From Rhodothermaceae bacterium (GTDB lineage Bacteria; Bacteroidota; Rhodothermia; Balneolales; Cyclonatronaceae), in NCBI GenBank assembly GCA_020201275.1, contig JAIVHB010000131.1, positions 1-61,755 of the forward strand: 61,755 bases of DNA, written 5' to 3'. The translations under genes and the position numbers were made by a program. The notes beneath the pieces were generated by a model. It was not told the origin of the DNA and did no database searches. It saw only the letters and a program-made list of their open reading frames with translations. Within the stretch, counting starts at the first letter, position 1; every line of letters starts with the position of its first letter. Shown in pieces: positions 1,404 through 4,607 of this stretch.

Positions 1404-4232
1404 CTATTTTAGCAGTGTCATTTTCCTGCTCAATACCTGCCCTCCGGCTTCGATGCGGTAGATATATACCCCGCTGGCTACACTGGCGGCATCCCACTCC
1501 ACGGTGTAAGTACCCTGCTGCTTCGGTTCTTTCACCAATACGGCTACGCTGCGGCCGAGTATGTCGTACACCGTCAGGGTTACATCGGCGAATTCCGGGA
1601 TGGTGTAGGCGATGGTGGTTGCCGGGTTGAACGGGTTGGGATAATTTTGCTGCAGTTCAATAAACCGTGGCAGTTCAGCATCATCCGGTACGGGAACAGC
1701 GGTCCCATCGAGCAGGCCTGAAGTGATTTCCACTTTTGCAGCTATCTCGAGGATCTCTGTTCCGGCTTCCCTGAATATGAATTGCCAGCTGGTCCCGTCC
1801 CAATACATGCTTCGCAACTGTGATGTACTGCCGTTATCGATTGCAAAATCAAGGCTCCCACCGTTCGTTGTTCCCAATACGATGTGATAATCAGTACCTG
1901 CCTGAACGCGGACTTTAGCCGCACTGATGTCAAAATAGTTGTAAATGACGGGTTGTACAGCACTCATTGATACTGTTGTTCGTTCTCCAAGCCGTGTACC
2001 CGGTTTCCCTGCGTTATCGGAGTAAACCTCGAAGTACAGATTGCCGCCTGAACTTATACTACTATATGTATGCAGCTGAAAGCCGGTTACATCGCCAGTC
2101 AGGCCGGGAGTGAACCTGATCGCGTATCTATTATCGCCATCCAGCGTTTTGGATTCAGCCGAGGGGCTAAGAAGAGTGCCGTGATACGACAAAAACTCGG
2201 TTACCGTGTCGGTATTGATGTTCAGCATCTCTCTCATGGCACTCAGAACATTTAATTTACCCGCACCCCAGGCATTTGTGGTAACCGGTCCCGTGAACAC
2301 ATCACGGTCGGCGGTACTGATTATCAGATGTTTTGCCTCACCGGCTGTGAGATTCGGATTGGCCCCCATCAGCAAGGCAACAGCACCTGCCACATGAGGG
2401 GAGGCCATGCTCGTTCCGCTTTTTACGATATGCTTGTCTCCATAGAGCACTGTATTTCCACTTCCGGTATCCTGGTCACGCGAAAGGGCTGCTTTAATCA
2501 CGAACCCCGGCGCCGAAATCTCCGGTTTCTGCCGGCCATCCCTGCTCGGACCAATACTGCTGAAACTGGCAATATCCCCGTTAACTGCAGCTGTAAAAAT
2601 GAGGCTGTTGCCTATACTGTTCACAAAATTTCGGTTTACCGTGTAGGCCCCGACCGTGATGGCATCTTTCGAAGTTGCTGGCATGGTTACGGTGTAATCG
2701 TTGTTGGCATCAAGCATTGCTGCGGCCGAACTGCCAACAGAAAAGGAGGCCAGCCATGCGTTGAAATTTACATTCTGTGATGACGTTGAGAGCTCCAGAA
2801 TCCAGTCGCCGCTTACAGGTTCACTGCCTTCTTCGGCATCGTATACCCACACCAGGATATTGGTACGGTTTCCGGTGGTACCATTGTACATATACACAGT
2901 ACCTTCCACATTCTCATCAAATGTTATATTGGTCATGGACACGGCCTCAAACGTGCTATCTGCCGGGTTTGTAAGTGTTGCGGTAACCGGCATGGTCCCT
3001 TCCATCCAGATGTCGATGATGAACTGATCATTGGATGTACCAGTGCGGGGTGTATATTCCGGAATACGAACGGTAAGGGTATCTGGCTGATTATTACTAA
3101 TTGAGCCTGATCTGTGCAGGTTTCTGCCACCATCGTTTCCTGCAGAAGTTACGACCGCAAAACCCGGATCTTTTGACAATTCATCGATGGCCTCCTCATC
3201 GGGTCGGGTACCGTCTCTCGGACCTATGCGCCCGCCCAGGCTCAGGTTAACTACAACCGGTTTCCCCAGCTCCCTGCCCTTAAGGCTTGCATAGCTCAAA
3301 CCATTGATAATATTGGCAAGCGAAAATGAATTGACACCTCCACGAATCACGATGATATCGGCATCGGGAGCAAGTCCCTGGTACAGTCCGCTCGCCGCCG
3401 CCGATCCCAGAACATGGGTGCCATGGCCGTTGGTGTCTCTCGACCGGATAAGATCAGGATTTTCAAATGCAGCCTCAATGCGGGTTCTGTTGTATTCAAC
3501 TCCGTAGTCAAGATCGCCACCCGGAGTCGTTTCTCCCTGCCCGGCCTCAAGGGTTACATCCCAAAGGTATAGAATCCGCGATCTGGTTGTATCGCCGGGC
3601 ACCCTGAAGTTCGGATGCTGCCAGTCGACACCGGTATCAAGTACCACCACAATCGCACCCTCGCCTCTATATTGTGTACCATTCAAATAACCGGCATGCA
3701 GCAGATGTGCCCTGGTCTCATACAGGCTCTGATCCATCTGAGGCAGTTGCAGTTCGCCGGCTACCGCCGATGTAACCCCGTCAATACGTATCAGGTCTTC
3801 GAGTTGATGCTCACCCACCCTGGCTGTAACGAAACCGGGCATCACCGTATTTACCTCTATGCCGGCATTACGCAGAGACCCGGCATCGTCGGTGTAGATG
3901 ATTACCGGATAGACAAGACCGCCTGTTCTGTCGTTGTAAATACCATCGGGCAGGTCATCTCTGTACTGTGCTCCCTGCTGCAGACCACGTTGTTCGAGAC
4001 GGTACCTTACCAGCCCCGACTGTAGAATCAGATCCAGGCGTGCAGCTTCATCTCTGTGCAGAAAACGGCTGTTCAGGGCCGGGTCGTGCGAAAAAACGGA
4101 CAATCTTTCATCGGCGGCATGCTGCCTCTGTGTGTCGGAGGGTACACGCTCATTTTGAGCCGCTGCACCGGTAGCAAGAAACAGTGCCATTAGCGCTGCA
4201 ATGAAAATTTGCAGAATTTTATGCAGCATCAT
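1404..4232 (-). CDS. Secreted subtilisin-like (S8) serine protease with type IX sorting domain
   Basis: A 942-residue preproprotein with a hydrophobic signal peptide (about 1-25, ending GAAAQ). A prodomain at about 105-165 (YPVIIYTDDAGSLRNAGIEV onward) resembles peptidase inhibitor/propeptide folds. The S8 catalytic domain follows, with Asp199 in VVVLDTGVDW, His270 in NGHGTHVLG and Ser608 in SGTSMASPHVAGA. Residues about 390-500 form an insertion inside the catalytic domain. The last ~85 residues (QNYPNPFNPATTIAYTIP, then YDILGRSV, ending SRKMTLLK) are a typical type A T9SS C-terminal sorting signal, so the enzyme should be exported across both membranes. The ATG follows directly on the TAA of the upstream lipoprotein gene (TAAATG), implying co-translation. 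The likely role is extracellular protein degradation. Confidence 0.95.
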   Translation of the reverse strand: MMLHKILQIFIAALMALFLATGAAAQNERVPSDTQRQHAADERLSVFSHDPALNSRFLHRDEAARLDLILQSGLVRYRLEQRGLQQGAQYRDDLPDGIYNDRTGGLVYPVIIYTDDAGSLRNAGIEVNTVMPGFVTARVGEHQLEDLIRIDGVTSAVAGELQLPQMDQSLYETRAHLLHAGYLNGTQYRGEGAIVVVLDTGVDWQHPNFRVPGDTTRSRILYLWDVTLEAGQGETTPGGDLDYGVEYNRTRIEAAFENPDLIRSRDTNGHGTHVLGSAAASGLYQGLAPDADIIVIRGGVNSFSLANIINGLSYASLKGRELGKPVVVNLSLGGRIGPRDGTRPDEEAIDELSKDPGFAVVTSAGNDGGRNLHRSGSISNNQPDTLTVRIPEYTPRTGTSNDQFIIDIWMEGTMPVTATLTNPADSTFEAVSMTNITFDENVEGTVYMYNGTTGNRTNILVWVYDAEEGSEPVSGDWILELSTSSQNVNFNAWLASFSVGSSAAAMLDANNDYTVTMPATSKDAITVGAYTVNRNFVNSIGNSLIFTAAVNGDIASFSSIGPSRDGRQKPEISAPGFVIKAALSRDQDTGSGNTVLYGDKHIVKSGTSMASPHVAGAVALLMGANPNLTAGEAKHLIISTADRDVFTGPVTTNAWGAGKLNVLSAMREMLNINTDTVTEFLSYHGTLLSPSAESKTLDGDNRYAIRFTPGLTGDVTGFQLHTYSSISSGGNLYFEVYSDNAGKPGTRLGERTTVSMSAVQPVIYNYFDISAAKVRVQAGTDYHIVLGTTNGGSLDFAIDNGSTSQLRSMYWDGTSWQFIFREAGTEILEIAAKVEITSGLLDGTAVPVPDDAELPRFIELQQNYPNPFNPATTIAYTIPEFADVTLTVYDILGRSVAVLVKEPKQQGTYTVEWDAASVASGVYIYRIEAGGQVLSRKMTLLK

Positions 4233-4607
4233 TTATTGGTCGTTTTGTGGAAAATTCAAATCGGAGTCTGCCTCAACAGATTGCGTGGATTCAAGTCCGG
4301 CGGCCATGAGTATCTCTGCCCTGGTCAGCCTGGCTGTTACTATCGGACCAATTACAGCATCAAGTTTTAGGCCGGCATCCCTCAGATGTTCCGCGTTATC
4401 CGTACGGATGATCACGCTGTACAGGTCTTCATCATGTTCATTGCGGCCAACTGTATCCGGTACATTACCCTCCTCTGTGGCAACTTCAACCAGTAGTTGA
4501 AGACGTGCATCAAGTTTGTTCATTGTTTCCGGGCTTATCTGATCGTCCAGACTGCATGCCGGCAACAACATAAGCAGGCTAAATACTAAAAAAGTGCTCG
4601 TGTTCAT
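4233..4607 (-). CDS. Small lipoprotein resembling a free-standing protease prodomain/inhibitor
   Basis: The 124-residue product has a lipoprotein signal with lipobox LLPAC (Cys about 18), so it is probably anchored in the outer or inner membrane facing the periplasm. Residues about 62-112 (DLYSVIIRTDNAEHLRDAGL, then AVIGPIVTARLTRAEI) align well by eye with residues ~106-162 of the protease encoded immediately downstream (LVYPVIIYTDDAGSLRNAG, then TVMPGFVTARVGEHQL). The two genes abut exactly. By analogy with stand-alone I9-type propeptides, the product may inhibit or chaperone the protease during export. That function is inference; the homology to the neighbour's prodomain is visible in the sequence. 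Confidence 0.8.
   Translation of the reverse strand: MNTSTFLVFSLLMLLPACSLDDQISPETMNKLDARLQLLVEVATEEGNVPDTVGRNEHDEDLYSVIIRTDNAEHLRDAGLKLDAVIGPIVTARLTRAEILMAAGLESTQSVEADSDLNFPQNDQ

Follow-up and report, generated by a model that had tools for sequence, protein, structure and literature searches.

A small lipoprotein encoded directly before an S8 protease exported by the type IX secretion system (T9SS) probably acts in trans as a membrane-tethered, propeptide-type (I9-like) inhibitor of that subtilase. Both genes lie on the minus strand of the window, i.e., the whole 61,755-nucleotide stretch of Rhodothermaceae DNA that was analyzed, with the following features:

4233..4607, minus strand: lipoprotein gene (free-standing prodomain, 124 aa), an ORF with a same-genus homologue under purifying selection
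4554..4607, minus strand: signal peptide and lipobox LLPA/C, with lipidated Cys18 and mature N-terminus CSLDDQ predicted from sequence; the lipobox Cys occurs in nearly all free-standing Bacteroidota copies
4269..4427, minus strand: lipoprotein segment with a prodomain-type fold (AlphaFold2, best Foldseek matches to subtilase prodomains, cap residue)
4236..4268, minus strand: lipoprotein C-terminal tail SDLNFPQNDQ, apparently ending near the residue equivalent to the cis prodomain cut (alignments, tail length)
1404..4232, minus strand: S8 protease gene (942 aa; ORF, Peptidase_S8 3e-47)
3729..4157, minus strand: protease prodomain in cis, residues 26-168 (homology to the lipoprotein, secondary-structure order in the zymogen model)
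2163..3728, minus strand: protease catalytic region, closest solved relatives CspA/B/C (Pfam, invariant columns, PDB sequence and fold searches)
3636-3638, 3423-3425 and 2409-2411, minus strand: protease triad Asp199, His270 and Ser608, respectively (window sequence, invariant alignment columns)
1419..1643, minus strand: T9SS type A C-terminal sorting domain, residues 864-938 (TIGR04183, 46.3 bits; PF18962)

The lipoprotein stop codon (TAA) is followed on the very next base by the protease ATG, and this junction, along with the coordinates and lengths of both genes, had been given exactly in the preliminary description. The S8 domain of the protease scored 161.6 bits in Pfam (PF00082, 3.4e-47) with the triad motifs present, and its Por_Secre_tail exceeded the TIGR04183 cut-off of 23. 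The source genome encodes the T9SS translocon SprA and contains only four S8 genes.

We compared the lipoprotein with subtilase prodomains in sequence and fold. BLASTP aligned it to the neighboring protease over 77 residues (32% identity, E = 2e-8), so that the likeness earlier seen by eye over ~50 residues is both real and longer. This alignment extends to the lipoprotein end, where FPQNDQ and the terminus stand opposite LPQMDQ/SLYE of the protease; the lipoprotein thus ends close to the likely autoprocessing site of the protease, placed here by the spacing in subtilisin BPN'. In the AlphaFold2 model, a lipidated N-terminus and a linker lead into a prodomain fold with core pLDDT >90. When this model was searched against the PDB with Foldseek, ProN-Tk-SP, PAM protease, the Tk-subtilisin propeptide, and CspB came out at the top, with BPN', cucumisin, and PCSK9 further down and the ASP-ORF2 complex also present. 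Subtilase prodomains thus led the list in a search for which the preliminary description had named an unrelated fold as the adverse outcome. Probabilities reached at most 0.99 and the best E-value was 0.0077, i.e., no single E-value in this search passed 0.001, although modest E-values are usual for small domains. For the zymogen, AlphaFold gave a model of intermediate quality (mean pLDDT 63), from which we took only the order of elements; in the cis prodomain, this order is the same as in the lipoprotein.

Pfam Inhibitor_I9 did not match the window lipoprotein and reached one family member at E = 0.097, PF18425 matched two free-standing members weakly, and neither Pfam nor NCBIfam has a family that covers the free-standing set; matches to Pfam ABM and Band_7 were dropped as weak. 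A profile search against PDB sequences returned mainly chance matches (influenza HA2), the only one in register being a weak match to the BPN' prosegment (E = 0.55).

Once a subtilase prodomain has folded its enzyme, it acts as an inhibitor whose C-terminal tail lies in the active site. Among 32 free-standing copies, the tail ends 7–12 residues past the helix-cap position in 30, compared to 8 residues in BPN', and the cap residue is Glu in 22. The motif VEAD of the window lipoprotein keeps Glu and Asp at the positions of Glu69 and Asp71, the residues named for capping in BPN' (PMC6993865). Phe or Leu is the last residue in several free-standing copies; at the end of the window lipoprotein, the canonical hydrophobic P1 residue is absent.

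Next, we evaluated how widely the gene pair occurs. Relatives were sought in the order, the phylum, and the class, and the matching regions were then read; a search of genome contigs with the lipoprotein alone found nothing, its sequence being too divergent for peptide patterns. Overall, 30 convincing free-standing prodomains were identified in Bacteroidota (as delimited by GTDB; one counted genome matches a Melioribacter MAG contig), and a same-strand S8 gene adjoins 28 of them. With only four S8 genes in the source genome, this pairing goes far beyond chance. The free-standing gene is mostly upstream of the S8 gene and downstream in six cases (L071, L072, L086, L091, L092, and L225), which form one group of the tree described below. 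The C-terminus was checked for 26 of the Bacteroidota partner proteases, and every one of these ends in a T9SS type A tail; the partner proteases also retain their own prodomain in cis. The search of relatives suggested in the preliminary description thus recovered the pair across Bacteroidota and also in a genome of the same genus (G009), where it is retained at 61–64% identity. The same-genus lipoprotein shares the LLPAC lipobox, and the comparison gave a dN/dS of 0.19–0.23 for the lipoprotein (0.19 for the mature part, as for the prodomain).

The distribution is nonetheless patchy, since a strong free-standing copy is present in roughly 8% of the 245 genomes from the class, and many related proteases lack a partner lipoprotein. 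The two copies that do not adjoin an S8 gene are L100, located at a contig edge, and an orphan of the source genome itself (L070; G000:C70:281-760, minus strand). No protease gene flanks the orphan, which is followed by a terminator-like sequence and is nearest to the paired lipoprotein of G112. Weak free-standing matches without an S8 neighbor (L093, L094, L099, L227, L228, and L229) were left uncounted; prodomain-like ORFs of this kind lie at L094 1963-2406, L099 2921-3205, L227 3674-3916, and L228 2984-3226. Separately, the reading frame of L083 is truncated, perhaps by an assembly error, and in the source genome masked bases (N) stand beside an S8-like gene (L234 4126-5004).

The origin of the lipoproteins was examined in a tree built on 106 columns from 44 prodomains of proteases and 32 free-standing ones, in which many forks are weak. 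Lipoproteins grouped with lipoproteins, in two main groups that each stand opposite their own protease group. Pairwise identities agreed: 27 of the 27 lipidated members compared shared more identity with another lipoprotein than with the prodomain of their own protease, the window lipoprotein reaching 65% with another lipoprotein vs. 26% with its protease's prodomain. The preliminary description was therefore wrong in one detail, i.e., in calling the lipoprotein a copy of the protease's own prodomain. Because each lipidated member compared resembles a fellow lipoprotein more than the prodomain of the protease beside it, we regard the lipoprotein on this sequence evidence as an old gene lineage co-inherited with the proteases. 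Distances among lipoproteins and among prodomains were strongly correlated in both groups (Mantel r 0.84 and 0.87, permutation p 5e-5), which points to co-inheritance, while shared species history alone can also yield such a correlation.

Comparable pairs exist beyond the phylum. In a KSB1 bacterium (L114 6683-6976) and in the cyanobacterium Mastigocoleus testarum (L120 6790-7062), a free-standing prodomain without a signal peptide directly follows the gene of an S8 protease also lacking one. Here the pairing takes a form that looks cytoplasmic, and the arrangement is therefore older or more general than its lipidated form. In Chloroflexota, a weak prodomain-like 97-aa ORF without a lipobox lies directly upstream of an S8-like ORF (L167 4392-4685).

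Several known systems share parts of this arrangement. The potempins of Tannerella forsythia resemble the window lipoprotein in being small lipoproteins encoded directly before a T9SS-exported protease. Potempins, however, serve several protease classes and are known with beta-barrel or OB folds, which have no known relation to the prodomain of the protease. The free-standing prodomain family differs in having the I9 prodomain fold, and it is associated with S8 proteases only. Potempins, encoded directly before the KLIKK proteases, have been reported as specific inhibitors of these T9SS cargoes (PMC7296668, PMC4404884), and a tethered inhibitor beside a T9SS cargo is hence not without precedent. 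Stand-alone mimics of the prodomain are known in eukaryotes and, where tested, were potent inhibitors (PMC6993865). POIA1, the yeast peptidase B inhibitor, Arabidopsis SPI-1, Plasmodium SUB1-ProM, and Toxoplasma MIC5 likewise combine a separate gene with the subtilisin-prodomain fold, SUB1-ProM being also encoded beside subtilases (PMC6993865), but for none of them has lipidation or a T9SS cargo as partner been described. Streptococcus pyogenes Spi is likewise an adjacent inhibitor and propeptide analogue, although its target SpeB is a C10 cysteine protease, and the adjacent inhibitors of Bacteroides C10 proteases (Bfi/Bti), some of them Bacteroidota lipoproteins, are staphostatin-like and not prodomain-like (PMC2873492, PMC3462683). 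In the closest solved protease group, the prodomain of clostridial CspB is part of its own precursor and is not lipidated. In Myxococcus, secretion of the protease PopC is prevented by PopD, which binds to it (PMC6434023). Our searches of the open-access literature turned up no account of a T9SS subtilase accompanied by a lipidated prodomain. The lipidated I9-type form thus seems undescribed, and of the novelty first claimed this part stands, while lipoprotein inhibitors before T9SS proteases were already known.

For the lipoprotein, co-transcription, binding, inhibition, membrane face, and purpose are what we infer from these patterns. Specifically, the lipoprotein and the protease would probably share a transcription unit, with the lipoprotein synthesized ahead of the protease; export through Sec and lipidation would follow. 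The prodomain fold would then bind the catalytic domain as a cleaved propeptide does, its C-terminal tail occupying the substrate subsites. A prematurely matured protease would be kept inactive at the periplasmic or outer-membrane surface, and the envelope would be spared until the enzyme has left the cell. The lead of subtilase prodomains in the Foldseek search, the frequent pairing with S8 genes, the uniform T9SS tails, the Mantel correlations, and the tail lengths all count for a tethered inhibitor; the modest best Foldseek E-value, the lipoprotein end without a canonical P1 residue, and the orphan without an adjoining protease count against it. The original proposal of a tethered propeptide-type inhibitor or chaperone is thus sustained by homology, fold, lipidation signal, phylum-wide pairing, and position of the C-terminus, but not as regards an "own copy" or a lack of precedent.

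The lipoprotein could instead be an external folding chaperone that helps the protease fold in the periplasm, as ORF2 does for ASP, with inhibition secondary. We consider this unlikely, although prodomains catalyze folding in addition to inhibiting their enzymes and the purifying selection and co-inheritance would fit a chaperone equally well. In Aeromonas sobria, the separate ORF2 protein is encoded next to an S8 protease, places its C-terminus in the active site, and inhibits with an IC50 of 84 nM (PMC5638518), and the presence of the ASP-ORF2 complex in the Foldseek list adds to the parallel. However, ASP lacks a propeptide, ORF2 is encoded downstream, and no type IX secretion is involved, whereas the window protease has its prodomain (residues 26-168), as do the other Bacteroidota partner proteases. 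Since these proteases keep their own prodomain and many close relatives do without a partner, the lipoprotein would be an addition and not the sole chaperone.

A bolder extension of the tethered inhibitor is rather improbable: the lipid-anchored prodomains of the whole phylum would sit on the outer-membrane surface as immunity proteins against T9SS subtilases, also those that neighboring cells release. On this view, the orphan at G000:C70 would represent an orphan immunity gene, of a kind known for contact-dependent and type VI toxins.

More doubtful still, the lipoprotein may anchor the secreted protease on the cell in a latent state until release. The lipidated N-terminus followed by a linker in the AlphaFold2 model would suit such retention, and the acidic residues after the lipobox Cys (CSLDDQ) could be a surface-export signal. 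However, the sortase PorU normally anchors or releases type A T9SS cargo after removal of the tail. Finally, a decayed or recent prodomain duplicate without function would explain the homology but is scarcely credible given the low dN/dS, the presence across the phylum, and the finding that each lipidated member compared has a closer match among the lipoproteins than in its own protease.

How a folded, potentially active subtilase passes harmlessly through the periplasm is an open question in type IX secretion, and an unannotated lipoprotein family paired with T9SS subtilases across Bacteroidota would offer a direct test of it. Alongside potempins, Spi, and ORF2, the lipidated prodomain would be a further case of differing solutions to one problem, and many hypothetical lipoproteins may become nameable by annotators through this family.
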